Assembly: GCA_030167125.1 (NCBI GenBank)
Contig: CP126531.1
Coordinates: 620,001-684,000 of the forward strand
DNA length: 64,000 nt
Reading direction: 5' to 3'
DNA from: Rhodanobacteraceae bacterium
Lineage (GTDB): Bacteria; Pseudomonadota; Gammaproteobacteria; Xanthomonadales; Rhodanobacteraceae
A program made the translations under genes and the position numbers. The notes below the pieces were generated by a model. That model was not told where the DNA came from and searched no databases. It saw only the letters and a program-made list of their open reading frames with translations. Positions 13,505 through 21,664 of the stretch are shown here, piece after piece; position 1 is the stretch's first letter; every line of letters begins with the position of its first letter.

Positions 13505-14352
13505 AAGCGAGCGACGTGTTGATGGATGCGAAAACGCTGGCGGCGCTGACGCCGGGATCGGTGCTGATCGTCGATTGCCGGTTTGCGCTGGCCGATCCCG
13601 CGAAGGGCGAACGCGATTTCCTGCAAGCGCACATTCCGGGTGCGGTGTACGCGAGTCTCGACCACGATCTTTCCGATCTTTCGAAAAAAGGTTTGGGCCG
13701 GCACCCCTTGCCGGACGTGGCGGCATTCGCGCGCACGCTTTCGCGCTGGGGCTGGCGCAAGGGGCAATGGATCGTGGCCTACGACGACGCGGGCGGCGCG
13801 CTGGCCGCGGCGCGGTTGTGGTGGATGCTGCGGCTTGCCGACATCGATGCCTGCGTGCTGGATGGCGGCTGGCAGGCGTGGCTTGCGGCGTCGCTGCCTG
13901 TCGAGCGCGGTGCGGCGGCGCCGCGCGAAGTGACGGTGGTCGACTTGCCTGCCGATCCGACGGCGGTGGTTTATTTCGAGGAACTGGAAGCGTTGCGCGG
14001 CAAGCCGTCGACGCTGTTGCTGGACGCGCGTGCGGCGCCGCGCTTTCGCGGTGAATCGGAACCCATCGATCGCGCCGCGGGCCACGTGCCCGGTGCGCGC
14101 AACCGTCCGTTCTCGCAGAACCTGGCTGGCGACGGACGCTTCAAGCCCGCGGAAACCCTGCGTGCGGAATTCTCGACCTTGCTGGGCGATCGCGCACCGC
14201 GCGACGTCGTGCACATGTGCGGTTCCGGCGTCACGGCCTGCCACAACCTGCTGGCGATGGAAGCCGCGGGATTGCACGGCTCGCGCGTGTTCGCGCCGTC
14301 GTGGAGCGGTTGGGTGGGTGATCCCTCGCGCGCCGTCGCCACCGGCGACTAG
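13501..14352 (+). CDS. sseA: 3-mercaptopyruvate sulfurtransferase, two rhodanese domains
   Basis: It transfers sulfur from mercaptopyruvate or a similar donor to thiol acceptors. The 283-residue protein has an inactive N-terminal rhodanese domain (LIVDCRFALADP, HIPGAVYASL) and a catalytic C-terminal domain with HMCGSGVTA, whose Cys240 carries the persulfide. The CGSGVTA loop is the mercaptopyruvate type rather than the thiosulfate type (CRxGx[RT]). ATG 13501 overlaps the Nudix stop. Its own stop TAG overlaps by two bases the stop of the convergent PagL-like gene, leaving no room for a terminator. Confidence 0.92.
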   Translation: MKASDVLMDAKTLAALTPGSVLIVDCRFALADPAKGERDFLQAHIPGAVYASLDHDLSDLSKKGLGRHPLPDVAAFARTLSRWGWRKGQWIVAYDDAGGALAAARLWWMLRLADIDACVLDGGWQAWLAASLPVERGAAAPREVTVVDLPADPTAVVYFEELEALRGKPSTLLLDARAAPRFRGESEPIDRAAGHVPGARNRPFSQNLAGDGRFKPAETLRAEFSTLLGDRAPRDVVHMCGSGVTACHNLLAMEAAGLHGSRVFAPSWSGWVGDPSRAVATGD

Positions 14353-14834
14353 AACTTCACGCCGCCCAGCAACATCGTTTCACCCAGGTTCTTGCCGCCG
14401 CCGATCAGGTGCGCGTTGGAGATGTGCCGCAGCATCACGGTGAAGTGGCCGCCCTGCCAGCCGGCGCTGGTCATGAATTCGAAGCGGCTGGAGAGCGCGT
14501 CGGTGCGGGTGCTGGTCGCGGCCAGTTGCTCGCTGACGAACCAGTGATGGTCCGCCGACAGCACGCGCACGCCGCCGCCGGCCACGAATACCTCGTGGTG
14601 CAGGTCATCGTTGCGGGTATCGCGCGAATCGATCCAGCCGAGCGTGCCGATCGGTTCGAAATGGACGTGGTTGTCTTCGGGCCGCTCGCCGAACACGCTG
14701 GCGAAGACGGCGGCGGTGGTGCGTTCCCCCGACGTGACGCTGGGGCCGGCAGTCACGTCGAAACCCGCGGCCAGCGCGGGCGCGCACATCAACAGGCAGG
14801 CCGAGGCGGCCAATCCACGCGGGATGTTCCTCAT
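14349..14834 (-). CDS. PagL-like lipid A deacylase / acyloxyacyl hydrolase family outer-membrane protein
   Basis: Predicted outer-membrane beta-barrel that removes the 3-O-acyl chain of lipid A. The 161-residue precursor has a signal peptide (cleavage near ALAAG, residue 23) and ends in Phe, as barrel proteins do. The C-terminal block has His137, Ser139, Asn140 and Glu152 in RHISNAHLIGGGKNLGE, matching the PagL His-Ser-Glu triad order with one extra residue between Ser and Glu. Family assignment rests on this motif and the size, so it is likely but not certain. It is divergent from the marR efflux operon and shares its operator region, which suggests joint control of efflux and lipid A modification. 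Confidence 0.72.
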   Translation of the reverse strand: MRNIPRGLAASACLLMCAPALAAGFDVTAGPSVTSGERTTAAVFASVFGERPEDNHVHFEPIGTLGWIDSRDTRNDDLHHEVFVAGGGVRVLSADHHWFVSEQLAATSTRTDALSSRFEFMTSAGWQGGHFTVMLRHISNAHLIGGGKNLGETMLLGGVKF

Positions 14835-14909: not shown

Positions 14910-14949
14910 AATATAATTGCCTTGACAATTAAAGCCAAGACAGTATCAT
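14910..14949. promoter_or_regulatory. divergent promoters with overlapping MarR-type palindrome
   Basis: On the plus strand TTGACA (14922-14927) and TATCAT (14944-14949) with a 16-base spacer form a strong sigma-70 promoter for marR. On the minus strand TTGGCT (complement of 14933-14938) and TATATT (complement of 14910-14915) with 17 bases between could drive the PagL-like gene. The perfect inverted repeat TAATTG-CCTTGA-CAATTA (14914-14931) covers the plus -35 and the minus -10, the expected place for MarR autorepression. Confidence 0.7.
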
Positions 14950-14956
14950 CCTCGGC

Positions 14957-15430
14957 ATGAATCGTGCTGAAACCCCGTCCGATCGTTCCTTCCAGCTGTG
15001 CCGGCTGATCGGGCGGCTGCGCGCGGAATTCGTGACCGGGGTCGAGCAGGAGATGACGCGGCAGGGGGTGGACCTGAACTTCACTCAGTTCCTCGCGCTG
15101 AAGCTGCTCGGCCACGAGGAGCCGCTGACGCCGGTCGAACTCGCGCGCGCGCTGCACTACAACCCGGGCGCGCTGACGCGCTTGCTGGACAAACTGGAAC
15201 AACGTGGCTATCTCAAGCGGGTTCCTGATCCGGTCGACCGGCGCGCGCTGCGGCTCGAACTGACCGCGCAAGGCAGGAGCCTGCGCAAGCGCGTGATCGG
15301 CTATTGCGATGCCGTCGCGGAACGCACCTTTGCATGCACCACGTCGCGCGAGCGTGAGACCTTGCACGGCGTATTGACGCGCGTACTGGAAGACGTCCGC
15401 ACGCGGCGCGAAGCGCACGAACGGGGTTGA
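14957..15430 (+). CDS. MarR-family transcriptional regulator of the efflux operon
   Basis: A 157-residue winged-helix repressor resembling EmrR/MprA-type regulators. Helical dimer segments flank a DNA-binding core at about residues 45-110: LTPVELARALHYNPGALTRLL is the helix-turn-helix (quoted in two halves, LTPVELARAL and NPGALTRLL), and DPVDRRALRL is the wing. It heads an operon with an outer-membrane factor, emrA and two emrB genes. The strong promoter ends only seven bases before the ATG, so its mRNA should be leaderless or nearly so, and no ribosome-binding site is present. It probably represses its own operon from the palindrome at 14914-14931. Confidence 0.93.
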   Translation: MNRAETPSDRSFQLCRLIGRLRAEFVTGVEQEMTRQGVDLNFTQFLALKLLGHEEPLTPVELARALHYNPGALTRLLDKLEQRGYLKRVPDPVDRRALRLELTAQGRSLRKRVIGYCDAVAERTFACTTSRERETLHGVLTRVLEDVRTRREAHERG

Positions 15431-15477: not shown

Positions 15478-16986
15478 ATGACCCTTCAGGTTTCCAGACA
15501 TCGTCTCGGCCTTGCCGTTGCGTTCACGGCCAGCATCCTCGCCGGTTGCGCCAGCACCGGAGGGCTGCGTTCGACCGCGACGCCGATGCAAGCGGGTGAC
15601 CTGCACGCCGAACGAAGCCTCGCCGGCGTCCAGCTCGACGCCGCCGCATGGCCGCAGAAAGGCTGGTGGAAGGCCATAGGTGACGCGCAGCTCGACACGT
15701 TGGTGGATGAGGCGCTCGCCGACAATCCCGACATGGCGCTGGTCGATGCGCGCGTGCGCGCGGCGCTCGCCGCCGCCGGCGCCGCCGACGCCGCGCGCAA
15801 GCCGACGCTGAATGGCGGCGCCAGCGCGGCGGGCGCGCGCGTGCCGCCGCTGCTGCCGCCGATCGCCTCGGGCCATTTCGGCGTGATCCGCTACGGCTAT
15901 CTCAGCTTCAAGTGGGACATCGACCTGGGGGGCGGCAAGCGCGCCGCGTGGCAAGCCGCCGTCGGCAACGCGCGCGCGGCGGAAGTCGATGCGCAGGCCG
16001 CGCGCCTGAAACTTTCGGCCGACGTGGTGCAGGCGTATTTCGGCCTTGCCGGCGCGTACGCGCAACGCGACCTCGCCAACGAGGAATTGCAGCGCGCGCA
16101 GGATTTCCTGAACCTCACCAACAAGCGCGTCGCCAACGGCATCGACAGCAAGTTTTCGCTGGCGCGAATCCAGGGCGAAGCGGCAAGCGATCGCGCGCAC
16201 CTCGAAGCCGCCGACAACGAAGTGCACGCCGGCGGCCTGGTGCTCGCGGCGCTGCTCGGCAAGGGCCCGGACCGTGCGCTGTCGATCACGCGTCCAGCCT
16301 TGCCAGCGATTCCTGCGCTGGCGCTGCCGAGCGATTTGCCCGCCGACCTGCTGGGTCGTCGCCCCGACGTGGTGGCCGCGCGCTGGCGTGTGGAAGCCGC
16401 GGGCAAGGACATCAAGGCGGCCAAGGCCAAGTTCCTGCCGAACATCAGCATCAGTTCGCTGGCGGGCCTGATCGCGCCGTCCACGCTCGATCTGTTTTCG
16501 CTGACCAATCGCTTCTACACGATCCAGCCGGCGCTGAGCCTGCCGATCTTCGAAGGCGGCGCGCTGCGCGCCAACCTCGCCGGCAAGGACGCGGCGCGCG
16601 ACATCGCGGTCGCGCAGTACAACCAGACGCTGGTGCACGCGATCAACCAGGTCGCGACGCAGGTCGACGACGTGCGTTCGCTGGATGCGCAGGTGGCCGA
16701 CGCCGAAAACGCGCGCGGCAGCGCCGCGGATGCGTACAAGCTCGCGATGCAGCGCTACCGCGCCGGCGTCGGCAATTACCTGGAAGCCCTCAGCGTGCGC
16801 CAGGAACTGATCGCGGCCGAACAGCAACTGTCATCGCTGCAGACCCGGCGCAGCACCGCGTGGGCTGCATTGAATGAAGCGCTCGGCGGCGGCTTCACGC
16901 CTGCGAAAGACGCGCCTGCGCTCGCCACCATGACTTCCACCCCGCCGACTTCCCCTTCGACATCCGCGGACAAGGCCAGACAATGA
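15478..16986 (+). CDS. outer-membrane factor of a tripartite efflux pump (NodT/OprM family lipoprotein)
   Basis: Forms the trimeric outer-membrane exit duct for the EmrAB pump encoded next. The 502-residue precursor has a lipoprotein signal with lipobox LAGC (Cys24). It then carries two outer-membrane efflux repeats rich in coiled-coil helices, with DLGGGKRAAWQAA and LGRRPDVVAARWRVE as recognisable family blocks. The C-terminal tail is Thr/Ser/Pro-rich. ATG 15478 is chosen because the signal peptide begins there; the gap after marR is 47 bases. Its stop overlaps the emrA start (ATGA). Confidence 0.92.
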   Translation: MTLQVSRHRLGLAVAFTASILAGCASTGGLRSTATPMQAGDLHAERSLAGVQLDAAAWPQKGWWKAIGDAQLDTLVDEALADNPDMALVDARVRAALAAAGAADAARKPTLNGGASAAGARVPPLLPPIASGHFGVIRYGYLSFKWDIDLGGGKRAAWQAAVGNARAAEVDAQAARLKLSADVVQAYFGLAGAYAQRDLANEELQRAQDFLNLTNKRVANGIDSKFSLARIQGEAASDRAHLEAADNEVHAGGLVLAALLGKGPDRALSITRPALPAIPALALPSDLPADLLGRRPDVVAARWRVEAAGKDIKAAKAKFLPNISISSLAGLIAPSTLDLFSLTNRFYTIQPALSLPIFEGGALRANLAGKDAARDIAVAQYNQTLVHAINQVATQVDDVRSLDAQVADAENARGSAADAYKLAMQRYRAGVGNYLEALSVRQELIAAEQQLSSLQTRRSTAWAALNEALGGGFTPAKDAPALATMTSTPPTSPSTSADKARQ

Positions 16987-18215
16987 CTTCGCCCATCAAT
17001 CCCAACCCCGTTACCGACGACGAACGCGCCGACCAGCTCAAGGCCAGGCGCCTGAACAGGCGCCGCTGGCTGCTGCGCGGGCTCGTCGCGGTGATCGTGA
17101 TCGTCGCGATCATCTGGGCGCTGTACCACTTCATGGTCGGCCGCTGGTACGAGGGCACCGACGACGCGTACGTCAACGGCAACGTGGTGCAGATCACGCC
17201 GCAGGTGCCGGGCACCGTCATCAGCATCGGCGCCGACGACAACGACTACGTGCGCGAAGGCCAGGTACTGGTGAAGATGGACCCGTCCGACGCCGACGTT
17301 GCGCTGGCGCAGGCCGAAGCCACGCTGGCGCAGACCGTGCGCAAGGTGCGCGGCCTGTACAGCACCGTGCACACGTCGAAGGCCGACGTCGCCGCGCGCG
17401 AGGCCGTGGTGAAGCAGGCGCAGGCCGACTTCCAGCGCCGCAAGGGGTTGGCGGCATCGGGCGCGATTTCCGCCGAGGAACTCTCGCACGCACGCGATGC
17501 ATTGACCACCGCCGAGAGCGCGCTGACCGCGGCGCAGGCGCAGCTCGCAACGTCCAGCGCGCTGGTTTCCGATACGCAGATCGCGACGCATCCCGACGTG
17601 AAGGCGGCGGCCGCGCAAGTGCGCGCCGCGTGGTTGAACGACCAGCGCATGACGTTGATCGCGCCGGTTTCGGGTTACGTCGCCAAGCGCACTGTGCAGG
17701 TCGGCCAGCGCGTGCAACCGGGCACGCCGCTGATGGCGGTGGTGCCGCTGCACCAGCTCTGGGTCGATGCGAACTTCAAGGAAACCCAGTTGACCGACAT
17801 GCGCATCGGCCAGCCGGTGACGCTGACGTCCGACATCTACGGCGGCTCGGTGAAGTACCACGGCAAGGTGGTGGGCCTCGGCATCGGCACCGGCAGCGCG
17901 TTCTCGCTGCTGCCCGCGCAGAACGCGTCGGGCAACTGGATCAAGATCGTGCAGCGCTTGCCGGTGCGCATTTCCATCGACCCCAAGGATCTCGACAAGC
18001 ATCCGCTGCGCGTCGGCCTGTCGATGGACGTGTCGGTGAACCTGCACGACCAGTCCGGTCCGATGCTTTCGCAGCAGCCGGTGGAACATCCGGTGTTCAG
18101 CACCGACGTGTACGCGCGCAGCAAGGCCGAAGCGGATGAGTTGATCGACAAGATCATCCACGAGAACAGCGGGCCGGTGACGAGCGCGCCGAGCACCGCG
18201 GCCGCGGCGCAGTGA
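16983..18215 (+). CDS. emrA: EmrA-type membrane fusion protein (HlyD family)
   Basis: Periplasmic adaptor that links the EmrB transporter to the outer-membrane duct. The 410-residue protein has one N-terminal membrane anchor at about residues 32-52. The start of the lipoyl/barrel module is YEGTDDAYVNGNVVQITPQV, the EmrA signature. A long alpha-helical hairpin (repeated AQAEA, TTAESALTAAQAQL) and a second barrel half beginning LIAPVSGYVAKRTVQVG follow. It overlaps the outer-membrane factor by four bases. A family-B repeat then separates it from emrB by 189 bases. Confidence 0.94.
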   Translation: MTSPINPNPVTDDERADQLKARRLNRRRWLLRGLVAVIVIVAIIWALYHFMVGRWYEGTDDAYVNGNVVQITPQVPGTVISIGADDNDYVREGQVLVKMDPSDADVALAQAEATLAQTVRKVRGLYSTVHTSKADVAAREAVVKQAQADFQRRKGLAASGAISAEELSHARDALTTAESALTAAQAQLATSSALVSDTQIATHPDVKAAAAQVRAAWLNDQRMTLIAPVSGYVAKRTVQVGQRVQPGTPLMAVVPLHQLWVDANFKETQLTDMRIGQPVTLTSDIYGGSVKYHGKVVGLGIGTGSAFSLLPAQNASGNWIKIVQRLPVRISIDPKDLDKHPLRVGLSMDVSVNLHDQSGPMLSQQPVEHPVFSTDVYARSKAEADELIDKIIHENSGPVTSAPSTAAAAQ

Positions 18216-18232
18216 CGCGAGGTTCACGCGGA

Positions 18233-18369
18233 GTTCGTCCGTTCGCGCTGAGCGTTGCTTGCGATAGCAAGCAAAGTCGAAGCGCCTCCGCACCGTCCTT
18301 CGACTTCGGCCCCATCCAGATGGGGCCAGCGCTCAGAGCCTGCCCCGGACGTGATCCGGGGACGAACGG
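18233..18369. repeat. dispersed repeat, family B (copy 1)
   Basis: Starts GTTCGTCCGTTCG and ends GGACGAACGG, so the ends are inverted. Inside are hairpins such as TTGCTTGCGATAGCAAGCAA and GGCCCCATCCAGATGGGGCC, plus the blocks GTCGAAG and CCGTCCTTCGACTTCG. The blocks CGTTCGCGCTGAGCG and CTTCGACTTCG recur in the copy at 44264-44356. It occupies most of the emrA-emrB gap. Confidence 0.8.
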
Positions 18370-18404
18370 AAGATCAGCCGAGTTTCCATCAGGCAAAAAG
18401 ACCC

Positions 18405-19964
18405 ATGGCCTCGAACGCTGCCGCAGCCAATCAGTCCTTCGGTGAATTCCGTCCTGCCAGCCTGCCGCTGGCGACGATCGGGTTGTCGCTCGGCACCTTC
18501 ATGCAGGTGCTGGACCTCACCATTGCGAACGTGTCGCTGCCGACCATCGCCGGCAACCTTGGCGCGAGCCAGGACCAGTCGGTCTGGGTCATCACCTCGT
18601 TCACCGTGGCCAATGCGATTGCATTGCCGCTGACCGGATTCCTCTCGCGGCGTTTCGGCGAGGTGAAGACGTTCGTGTGGGCGACCGCGCTGTTCTCGAT
18701 CGCCTCGTTGTGCTGCGGCCTCGCGACCAGCCTCACGATGCTGGTGTTGTTCCGCGCGATCCAGGGCGCGGTGGCGGGGCCGATGTATCCGCTGACGCAA
18801 AGCCTGCTGGTTTCCATCTATCCGAATGAAAAACGCGGGATGGCGCTGGCGATCCTGGCGATGGTGACGGTGGTGGCGCCGATCGCGGGCCCGGTGCTGG
18901 GCGGCTACATCACCGACAACTATTCGTGGGAATGGATCTTCTTCATCAACGTTCCGATCGGGCTTGCGGTCAGTGCGATCATCGCCGCGCAACTGGGCGG
19001 ACGCCGCGACCCGATCGAGCGGCCGCGCATGGATTACGTGGGCCTGATCACGCTGATCCTCGGCGTGGGATCGCTGCAGGTGCTGCTCGACAAGGGCAAT
19101 GATCTCGACTGGTTCCAGTCGAATTTCATCGTCGTGCTCGCGGTCATCGCCGTGATCGCGCTGAGCGTGTTCCTGATCTGGGAGTTGACCGACCGCGAAC
19201 CGATCGTGAACCTGCGCTTGTTCCGGCATCGAAATTTCGCCGCGGGCACGCTGGCCATGGTGCTGGCCTACGCGGTGTTTTTCGCGATCGGATTATTGGT
19301 GCCCCTGTGGCTGCAGGAAACGCTGGGCTACACGCCGATCTGGTCGGGTCTGGCGACGGCGCCGATCGGCGTTGCGCCGGTGCTGCTGACGTTCTTCGTG
19401 GGCAAGTACGGCACCAAATTCGACCTGCGCTGGCTGGCCTCGTTCGCGTTCGTGGTAATGGGCGTGACGTGTTTCATCCGCGCCGACTTCAACACCGATG
19501 TCGATTTCTACCACGTGGCGATGGCGCAATTCCTCCAGGGCATCGGCGTGGCGTTCTTCTTCATGCCGATCCTGACGATCGCGTTGTCGGATCTTTCGGG
19601 CAGGGAAGTGGCCGCGGGTTCAGGCCTGATGACCTTCGTGCGTTCGGTGGGCGGCAGTTTCTCGGCGTCGATCACCACGTACTTCTGGGAACGCGGCGGC
19701 GTCACCAACCACGCGAACCTCGCTGCGCACATCAATGCCTATGACCCGCAGGTGCGACAGGCTGCGGCGGCCGGCGGCGGCACCCTGCAACGTTTCGCCG
19801 CGATGATCAACGGCGAAATCTCACGCCAGGCCGTGCAGATTTCCTTCAACAATTTGTTCTACATCTTCGGCTGGATCATCATCGCCCTCGTCGCGGTTGT
19901 CTGGCTGGCCAAACCGCCGTTCATCAAATCGGGTGGACCGGCTACGGCGGGCGGCGGACACTAG
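18405..19964 (+). CDS. emrB: EmrB-type MFS multidrug transporter (DHA2 family), first copy
   Basis: A 14-transmembrane-segment proton-driven exporter of hydrophobic drugs in the inner membrane, 519 residues. The first segment carries LGTFMQVLDLTIANVSLP, with the conserved Asp of the family, and SVWVITSFTVANAIALPLTG and LSRRFGEVKTF follow as in EmrB. ATG 18405 is chosen because homology starts just after it; the longer open frame upstream runs through the family-B repeat and is not conserved. A second, closely related emrB follows 146 bases downstream across a family-A repeat. Confidence 0.93.
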   Translation: MASNAAAANQSFGEFRPASLPLATIGLSLGTFMQVLDLTIANVSLPTIAGNLGASQDQSVWVITSFTVANAIALPLTGFLSRRFGEVKTFVWATALFSIASLCCGLATSLTMLVLFRAIQGAVAGPMYPLTQSLLVSIYPNEKRGMALAILAMVTVVAPIAGPVLGGYITDNYSWEWIFFINVPIGLAVSAIIAAQLGGRRDPIERPRMDYVGLITLILGVGSLQVLLDKGNDLDWFQSNFIVVLAVIAVIALSVFLIWELTDREPIVNLRLFRHRNFAAGTLAMVLAYAVFFAIGLLVPLWLQETLGYTPIWSGLATAPIGVAPVLLTFFVGKYGTKFDLRWLASFAFVVMGVTCFIRADFNTDVDFYHVAMAQFLQGIGVAFFFMPILTIALSDLSGREVAAGSGLMTFVRSVGGSFSASITTYFWERGGVTNHANLAAHINAYDPQVRQAAAAGGGTLQRFAAMINGEISRQAVQISFNNLFYIFGWIIIALVAVVWLAKPPFIKSGGPATAGGGH

Positions 19965-19987
19965 CGAATTCCAATCTATCCATTCGT

Positions 19988-20083
19988 CGTCATTCCCGCG
20001 AAGGCGGGAATCCATTTTTCTGTTGCGAAAAGACAATCAAGATGGATTCCGGGTTCTGCGCTTCGCGCAGCCCCGGAATGACG
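19988..20083. repeat. dispersed palindromic repeat, family A (copy 2)
   Basis: Ends CGTCATTCCCGCG and GGAATGACG. Internal hairpins are CCCGCGAAGGCGGG and CTGCGCTTCGCGCAG, and a central pair AATCCAT / ATGGATT is again present. It fills the gap between the two emrB genes. Confidence 0.88.
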
Positions 20084-20110
20084 TCAAACTTTTTCGATTA
20101 CCTGTGAGTC

Positions 20111-21664
20111 ATGGCTTCAAACGCCGCCACCGCATCCCAGTCCCTCGGCGAATTCCGGCCCGCCAGCCTGTCGCTGGCGACGATCGGCCTGTCGCTCGGC
20201 ACCTTCATGCAGGTGCTGGACATGACCATCGCCAACGTGTCGTTGCCGACCATCGCCGGCAACCTCGGCGCGAGCCAGGACCAATCGACGTGGGTGATCA
20301 CCTCGTTCACCGTGGCGCAGGCGATCACGCTGCCGATGACTGGATTCCTCTCGCGCCGCTTCGGCGAGGTGAAGGTGTTCGTGTGGGCGGTGCTGCTGTT
20401 CTCGCTGTTCTCGCTGTGCTGCGGCCTCGCCACCAGCCTGTCGATGCTGGTGCTGTTCCGCGCGCTGCAGGGCGCGGTGTGCGGGCCGATGTACCCGATC
20501 ACGCAAAGCCTGATGGTGTCGATCTATCCGCGCGAGAAACGCGGCATGGCGCTGGCGATCATCGCGATGATCACGGTGGTGGCGCCGATCGTGGGCCCGG
20601 TGGCGGGCGGCTGGATCACCGATTCGTATTCGTGGCGCTGGATCTTCTTCATCAACATCCCGATCGGCATCTTCGCCGGCGGCGTAGTCGCGATGCAGAT
20701 GGGCAAGCGGATCGAACAGCTGCGCCGCGCACGCATCGACTGGGTGGGACTGATCACGCTGATCCTCGGTGTCGGCTCGCTGCAGATCCTGCTGGACAAG
20801 GGCAACGAACTCGACTGGTTCCATTCCACCACCATCATCACGCTGGCGATCGTCGCGACGATCGCGCTTGCGGTGTGGGTGATCTGGGAGTTGACCGACA
20901 ACGAACCGCTGGTCGACCTGCGCCTGTTCCGGCATCGCAACTTCGCCGCGGGCACGCTGGCGCTGGTGCTGGCGTATGCGTTGTTTTTCTCGATCGCGCT
21001 GTTGCTGCCGCTGTGGCTGCAGAACGTGATCGGATACACGGCGCTGTGGTCGGGCCTCGCCGCCGCGCCCGTGGGCGTGATCCCGGTGCTGTTGACGTTC
21101 TGGGTTGGCCGCTACGCGCACAAGTTCGACATGCGCTGGCTGACGGCATTCTCGTTCGCCGTGATGGGATTGGTGTGCCTCCGCTTCGGCAGTTTCAACA
21201 CCGATGTCGATTTCTGGTCGGTGGCGTTGACCGAATTGATGCTGGGCTTGGGCATCGCGCTGTTCTTCATGCCGATCCTGACGATCCTGCTGTCGGACCT
21301 TGAAGGCCAGGAAATCGCGGAAGGCTCGGGTTCGGCGACCTTCCTGCGCACGGTCGGCGCCAGTTTCGCCGTGTCCATCGTCACCTACCTGTGGACACGC
21401 GGCGGCGTGGTCAGCCACGCCAACCTTGCCGCGCACATCAACGCGTTCAATGCCGAAGTGCGCCAGAACGTCACCGCCATGGGCGGGCAGTTGCAGCACT
21501 ACGCGGCGGGCATCAACGGCGTCATCACCCAGCAGGGCATGCAGATTTCATTCAACCAGATCATGGACGGACTGGCGATCGGTTTCTTCCTGCTGATCGC
21601 CGTGGTGTGGCTGGCCAAGCCGCCGTTCGTCGCGCGCGGTGGTGGGGCGACGGGTGGACATTAA
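20111..21664 (+). CDS. EmrB-type MFS multidrug transporter, tandem paralogue
   Basis: The 517-residue protein is colinear with the preceding EmrB along its full length and identical in long stretches, for example SLATIGLSLGTFMQVLD and LPTIAGNLGASQDQS, with differences concentrated in the C-terminal half (DFWSVALTELMLGLG against DFYHVAMAQFLQGIG). This is a tandem duplication with divergence, perhaps giving two substrate ranges served by one EmrA and one duct. All family landmarks are intact, so it is not a pseudogene. The stop is followed by a marked drop in G+C content. Confidence 0.92.
   Translation: MASNAATASQSLGEFRPASLSLATIGLSLGTFMQVLDMTIANVSLPTIAGNLGASQDQSTWVITSFTVAQAITLPMTGFLSRRFGEVKVFVWAVLLFSLFSLCCGLATSLSMLVLFRALQGAVCGPMYPITQSLMVSIYPREKRGMALAIIAMITVVAPIVGPVAGGWITDSYSWRWIFFINIPIGIFAGGVVAMQMGKRIEQLRRARIDWVGLITLILGVGSLQILLDKGNELDWFHSTTIITLAIVATIALAVWVIWELTDNEPLVDLRLFRHRNFAAGTLALVLAYALFFSIALLLPLWLQNVIGYTALWSGLAAAPVGVIPVLLTFWVGRYAHKFDMRWLTAFSFAVMGLVCLRFGSFNTDVDFWSVALTELMLGLGIALFFMPILTILLSDLEGQEIAEGSGSATFLRTVGASFAVSIVTYLWTRGGVVSHANLAAHINAFNAEVRQNVTAMGGQLQHYAAGINGVITQQGMQISFNQIMDGLAIGFFLLIAVVWLAKPPFVARGGGATGGH

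Follow-up and report, generated by a model that had tools for sequence, protein, structure and literature searches.

A predicted leaderless marR start and a conserved candidate MarR operator at an emrRCAB-type operon linked to a PagL-type deacylase gene in Rhodanobacteraceae

Introduction

Does a single regulator-binding site control both a drug efflux operon and a gene for a putative lipid A deacylase, and is the mRNA of the regulator leaderless? These questions are raised by a locus in the genome of a Rhodanobacteraceae bacterium, of which a stretch of 64,000 nucleotides (hereafter the window) was analysed. Within it, a marR gene and a pagL-like gene are located back to back. An earlier note on this DNA had proposed that transcription of marR begins at or next to its start codon, that one palindrome covers the -35 region of marR and the -10 region of a divergent pagL promoter, and that one regulator may in this way control both sides. 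We followed these proposals through relatives from two families. The first family sample (f1), which we take to be Rhodanobacteraceae, comprised 117 genomes, 94 of which gave a marR match at E ≤ 1e-20. The second family (f2), which may be Xanthomonadaceae, accounted for 26 of 58 order-wide marR matches in 200 genomes, and 20 of its loci were fetched.

Results

The operon behind marR

The genes of the operon lie on the plus strand in the order marR-emrC-emrA-emrB-emrB. Based on its open reading frame and Pfam domain, marR (14957–15430) encodes an EmrR-like repressor of 157 aa, the MarR winged-helix domain of which was recognised by PF01047 with 60.7 bits against a cut-off of 24.6. With the NCBIfam equivalog NF008122 for MprA/EmrR of the E. 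coli type, the protein scored 46.4 bits, which is under the cut-off of 157 bits; we therefore call it EmrR-like by its position in the operon and do not file it as MprA. The next genes encode an emrC-like outer-membrane efflux protein of the NodT family (15478–16986; TIGR01845, 404 bits, cut-off 210.05), an emrA-like periplasmic adaptor (16983–18215; TIGR00998, 401 bits, cut-off 390.8) and, in tandem, two emrB-like DHA2 transporters (18402–19964 and 20111–21664; TIGR00711, 490.5 and 457.3 bits, respectively, cut-off 230.2) that are 70% identical. Two emrB copies were found in six of the 94 fetched stretches, including the window, and five of these six belong to the window's genus. The spacers in front of the two copies (18216–18401 and 19965–20110) are rich in inverted repeats and resemble what are presumably dispersed intergenic repeats. 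In 88 of the 94 stretches, marR, emrC, emrA and emrB were present in this order on one strand, and five of the six misses were short stretches. With its regulator followed by an outer-membrane factor, an adaptor and a DHA2 transporter, the operon belongs to the emrRCAB type, and the region reads as a putatively autoregulated member with a leaderless start.

A near-invariant palindrome over the marR promoter

The marR-emr promoter consists of a -35 hexamer TTGACA (14922–14927) and a -10 hexamer TATCAT (14944–14949), both on the plus strand, found by direct reading and by a promoter scan. The -35 hexamer, which is kept in relatives, lies entirely within the predicted MarR operator, an 18-bp palindrome TAATTG-N6-CAATTA (14914–14931; in full TAATTG-CCTTGA-CAATTA) with the conserved core TTGCCTTGACAA at 14917–14928. 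Such a position fits repression of the operon by a bound regulator. The exact palindrome occurs once in the whole genome of 3,281,789 bases. When up to two mismatches were allowed, the genome had ten matches and the window a single one, where shuffled sequences averaged 0.21 and a match occurred in 18 of 100 of them. A search of the window's own genome for a wider MarR regulon gave only the one exact site, the other nine places all having two mismatches.

In relatives the operator proved to be near-invariant. The core 12-mer with at most one mismatch was located upstream of marR in 89 of the 94 f1 genomes (83 exact), the five misses being four genomes of genus g25 and one locus cut off by the end of its contig. 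Across all 117 f1 genomes the exact 12-mer was present at 89 places in 84 genomes, 83 of these places being at marR, while the reversed 12-mer, serving as a control, occurred 14 times. Since the sites in so many genomes are mostly found at marR, the regulator looks like a single-site, local and dedicated repressor.

Additional support for an operator came from the second family, where the arms of the palindrome have changed jointly. Among the 20 f2 loci the arms read TTC-N6-GAA in eight, TTG-N6-CAA in eight and a broken TTT-N6-CAT in four. In 109 sequences the innermost arm pair was G/C in 96 and C/G in eight (complementary in 104, against a shuffled mean of 89.6), and the fourth pair was T/A in 58 and A/T in nine (complementary in 69, against 54.5). 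None of 1000 shuffles reached as high for either pair, a count that is not a probability, given the non-independence of related sequences. When f1 was taken by itself, the shuffles were exceeded by the fourth pair (57 against 43.4) and not clearly by the others. This co-variation supports a two-fold symmetric binding site.

Two further features of the region were observed. A third half-site, GGCAA, adjoins the -10 hexamer in 60 of the 89 f1 genomes, 22–23 bp further downstream than the point where the operator core begins, and none was found in the eight genomes of the window's genus. Four f2 genomes have TATTTTC and GAAAATA instead, wider apart.

The divergent gene probably encodes a PagL-type deacylase

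The gene on the minus strand next to marR (14349–14834) encodes a protein of 161 aa with an N-terminal signal-like helix, which the earlier note had regarded as a lipid A deacylase-like protein. By its open reading frame, alignment and structure model, we assign it as a pagL-like lipid A 3-O-deacylase gene. In terms of sequence the protein is distant: it scored 15.6 bits with Pfam PF09411 (PagL), under the gathering score of 23; a search of its own genome with this profile gave no match; and neither the protein nor the profiles matched PagL by sequence in the PDB. Eleven of 19 alignment members matched PF09411 at E ≤ 0.01, the window protein not being among them.

Nevertheless, structure supported a PagL-type protein. 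The model (pLDDT 87) has an eight-stranded barrel behind the signal-like helix, as expected for an outer-membrane barrel of the PagL fold, and of 1000 re-aligned chains PagL itself (PDB 2erv) ranked first with a Z-score of 17.0 and an rmsd of 1.9 Å over 128 residues, at 15% identity in the structural alignment; the next barrel had a Z-score of 14.8 at 3.1 Å. In Foldseek, the E-values of which did not separate PagL from other small barrels, 2erv was fifth by E-value with no match at E ≤ 0.001, and it had the highest TM-scores among the 50 matches listed. An alignment of 68 proteins, consisting of the window protein and those of 67 of 80 fetched loci, had R136, H137, S139, N149, G151 and E152 invariant. 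H137, S139 and E152 may correspond to the catalytic His, Ser and Glu of PagL. Although the protein remains under the Pfam cut-off, the invariant residues and the best structural match support its being a PagL-type lipid A deacylase of putative activity.

Named records retrieved with the pagL profile belong, among others, to Rhodanobacter, Dyella, Frateuria, Fulvimonas, Oleiagrimonas and uncultured Rhodanobacteraceae. Three loci (L168, L170 and L171) hold pagL paralogues that have no emr operon nearby and are nested in the clade of the window's genus. L170 and L171 retain the invariant His and Ser and fail a pattern that requires Asn or Asp after the Ser.

Shared control of pagL is plausible in the window's lineage

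A candidate promoter for pagL was identified on the minus strand at 14910–14938, with TTGGCT at 14938–14933, a spacer of 17 nt and TATATT at 14915–14910, which amounts to 9 of 12 consensus matches. The proposal that the palindrome covers both promoters was borne out in full for the -35 of marR, but the -10 of pagL is covered at only two of its six bases (14914–14915); otherwise the palindrome is located in the spacer of the candidate pagL promoter. Because pagL lies back to back with marR in this genus, the dimer that covers the marR promoter would at the same time occupy this spacer.

Conceivably, MarR might control only itself and the pump, with pagL abutting the operator under a promoter and a regulator of its own. 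This idea was weighed against the relatives. In all eight sampled genomes of the window's genus (g1), the window included, pagL is divergent from marR, and the operator core is exact in six and has one mismatch in two. We also compared 11 genus-type loci, these being the window plus ten others with names, of which six correspond to g1 genomes and four (L160, L162, L163 and L173) were placed by similarity. The operator core, or a form of it with one mismatch (as in L164), was kept between pagL and marR in the window, in all ten of the other loci and in the g1 genome G024, which speaks against separate control. The same is true of the promoter geometry in the window, L160 and L167, where the operator is located inside the best-scoring pagL promoter and a bound dimer should interfere. 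In L160, the most similar locus, the pagL promoter of this register scores better than in the window (TTGGCT-N17-TATAAT), and L167 has TTGGCA-N17-TATCAT, likewise in the register of the window.

However, these three are the only ones of the 11 genus-type loci in which a pagL promoter with at least 9 of 12 matches has the window's register. L163 and L169 have sites with 9 of 12 matches in another register, the -35 of which would be the TTGTCA of the operator itself, and L164 has a site with 10 of 12 matches in another register, before the operator. The distance from the operator to the pagL start, as chosen by our script, ranged from 29 to 186 bp and was 164–186 bp in three genus-type loci, a separation that favours independent control of pagL.

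Independent control is also favoured by the 59 genomes in which pagL is located downstream of marR. None of the 59 had the MarR 12-mer with at most one mismatch within 220 bp upstream of pagL; the best matches had two mismatches in one case, three in four cases and more in the others, distributed as in shuffles. The idea of a MarR site ahead of the downstream-lying pagL was therefore rejected, since these matches were no better than those in shuffled sequences. What 49 of the 59 did carry was an [AG]AAC-N6-GTnCA-like element (shuffled mean 5.6, largest 10), a loose pattern that was selected after viewing the data. Ahead of downstream pagL genes, for example in L079 and L075, the element has forms such as GTAAACT-N4-AGTTTAC or GAAC-N6-GTTC.

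As pagL can do without a MarR site when it lies downstream, co-control by MarR is not a general need. Two g25 genomes (G097 and G108) also have the shared operator between the two genes. In four g25 genomes (L130, L132, L139 and L141) pagL is divergent from marR without the operator core. The earlier suggestion of one regulator for both sides thus stood as far as the geometry in the window goes, and it was not borne out by the promoter register of most other genus-type loci or by the downstream pagL genes. If real, co-control appears plausible but local, limited to the window's lineage and the two g25 genomes. Control of the pump alone is a reading that we would take seriously, while thinking that it probably does not describe the window's genus.

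pagL is linked to the emr operon beyond the window's genus

The association of pagL with the emr operon is a broader finding than their joint control. A pagL match at E ≤ 1e-10 was obtained in 86 of the 117 f1 genomes, 84 of which also had a marR match, and in 73 of these 84 pagL was found within 11 kb of marR. Of the 11 other genomes, two (G087 and G090) give no verdict on linkage, as their marR is at the end of a contig; in G035 (through the last 37 profile positions only) and G089 a pagL near marR was detected by profile, and these are outside the 73. The linked layouts comprised 14 divergent ones (all eight g1 genomes and six g25 genomes) and 59 with pagL downstream of marR, of which 58 had pagL on the opposite strand, convergent with the operon, and one on the same strand. 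For 59 operons with a convergent pagL the gap from emrB to pagL had a median of 117 bp, and it was at most 300 bp in 43. In f2, a pagL match was found in five sampled genomes, two of which (G207 and G231) also had marR, on a different contig.

Such linkage might reflect no more than shared ancestry of the gene order, with pagL and the pump functionally unrelated, and two observations are in line with this: most linked genomes share one layout (the 58 of 73 that are convergent), and a single origin of the divergent layout is compatible with the data. Two independent origins had been considered, as a first test seemed to rule out a single clade overwhelmingly. When the unlinked paralogues L168, L170 and L171 were omitted, however, one origin was compatible (AU test; p = 0.27, or 0.13 when the test was restricted to linked rows), and since these paralogues sit inside the genus clade the claim of two origins was dropped. 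Mere inheritance of gene order is at odds with the variation around the pair. The commonest family of genes immediately upstream of marR made up only 17 of 88 rows in a comparison based on crude picking of open reading frames, and yet pagL and the operon stay together in 20 genera. As the flanking genes vary, pagL seems tied to the operon and not to the region. Moreover, pagL is found close to the operon at either of its ends. Inheritance alone is thus an account that we consider unlikely, though far from negligible.

The marR mRNA is predicted to be leaderless

The -35 and -10 hexamers of marR are separated by 16 nt, and the -10 hexamer is followed by a gap of 7 nt (14950–14956) before the ATG at 14957–14959. 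Direct reading of the sequence thus confirmed that TTGACA-N16-TATCAT ends seven bases ahead of the start codon. Transcription usually starts 6–7 nt from the -10 hexamer, and the start of marR transcription is therefore predicted at 14956 or 14957. The promoter scan gave 11 of 12 consensus matches for this promoter and two promoter-like sites in 1.2 kb, compared to 0.1 in shuffled sequences. A terminator-like hairpin on the minus strand (14942–14918) was at chance level, one being found where 0.8 were expected.

Among the 89 f1 genomes with the operator, the -10 hexamer ends 6–10 nt ahead of an in-frame ATG or GTG in 87, with no Shine-Dalgarno-like motif between the -10 and the start codon in any of the 89. 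The -35/-10 spacer was 16 nt in 84 and 17 nt in five, one of the latter, G024, having a false -10; these figures were obtained with a script biased towards consensus-like -10 hexamers. Both exceptions to the spacing could be traced. In G106 the script chose an earlier GTG, and an ATG is located 8 nt past the -10. In G024, of genus g1, 15 bp have been lost compared to G042, which abolishes the normal -35/-10 spacing and left the script with its false -10. The 15-bp difference between the corresponding loci, L065 and L064, is situated between two GCCTTGACA direct repeats. In f2, the best -10 ends 7–8 nt ahead of the ATG in all 20 loci and matches TATAAT at no fewer than four of six positions in 19. 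For comparison, 400 other start codons from 49 open reading frames of the window included none with a promoter of at least 9 of 12 matches 5–10 nt upstream; this baseline is crude, as picking the longest frames displaced marR itself and retained spurious frames.

It would be compatible with an upstream start of a marR mRNA that is not leaderless, the hexamers being conserved as operator only, that the leaderless status is read from spacing and that in many relatives an additional ATG or TTG lies upstream in the marR frame, in some only 9 nt away; yet the -10 is outside the palindrome and its distance to the start codon is kept in both families, and with nothing comparable at the other start codons we regard such a start as very improbable. 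Together these findings strongly support a leaderless marR mRNA, as predicted from the position of the -10 and as the earlier note had claimed. No usable paper on transcription starts in relatives was found among the literature matches listed.

Discussion

The type of operon and its mode of control are already known. In Stenotrophomonas maltophilia, the emrRCABsm system (Huang et al. 2013, as cited in PMC4485184 and PMC4557615) is a four-gene operon repressed by the MarR protein emrRsm; regulator mutants overexpress the pump and show reduced susceptibility to nalidixic acid and CCCP (PMC4485184). As far as these citing papers describe it, that operon shares with the window co-directional genes for a MarR-type repressor and three pump parts; the window differs by its second emrB, and the parts of the papers at hand mention neither a pagL neighbour nor a leaderless start. 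EmrR of Chromobacterium violaceum, also of the MarR family, is described as directly repressing itself and emrCAB, with relief by salicylate (PMC6249546). According to the same account it represses a few dozen genes, whereas the exact site of the window occurs once in its genome. CrtR of Corynebacterium glutamicum sets a precedent for a MarR protein that has a single site, a divergent target and a leaderless mRNA: it is described as having one binding site between divergent genes and as repressing both its own gene and the operon opposite, and its mRNA is reported to be leaderless (PMC5401885). From that account CrtR differs in that it controls carotenoid genes and in that the crtR promoter motifs are not clear, unlike those of the window.

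In the light of these systems, we consider it reasonably probable that a MarR dimer at the palindrome represses leaderless marR and the pump and, in this genus, probably pagL too. Bound to the 18-bp palindrome, which includes the -35, the dimer would block RNA polymerase, so repressing its own leaderless mRNA along with the pump genes behind it, and a ligand would release it from the operator. Since the 5′ end of the transcript is predicted to be the start codon or no more than a base away, synthesis of the repressor would need no Shine-Dalgarno sequence. Located in the pagL spacer, the same dimer would probably repress pagL as well. Sequence elements and their conservation, gene linkage, the predicted PagL fold and the invariant active-site-like residues were observed; binding of the palindrome by MarR, repression and a response of pagL are what we infer from them.

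New among the open-access matches listed, and as far as our searches reach, are the conserved leaderless single-site design, the linkage of pagL and emr, and the lineage-specific shared operator. For the linkage, no prior description was found among these open-access matches, the scope of which leaves subscription papers aside.

For an emrR-type repressor, the findings provide a predicted operator that is testable and is conserved in two families, together with a repressor with leaderless spacing kept over many genera, and a multidrug pump linked with a lipid A deacylase gene. If both sides answer to one ligand, efflux would be tied to remodelling of the outer membrane via a single DNA site, and the joint response to membrane-active compounds suggested earlier may be its outcome. 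A more far-reaching idea, which we offer tentatively and hold to be doubtful, is that in Rhodanobacteraceae the Emr pump and the PagL-type deacylase work as one functional module, served in the window's lineage by one bidirectional MarR operator and a leaderless repressor. Were this so, an amphiphilic signal would switch drug export and remodelling of the outer leaflet together, and the pump might even deal with the hydroxy fatty acids released by PagL.
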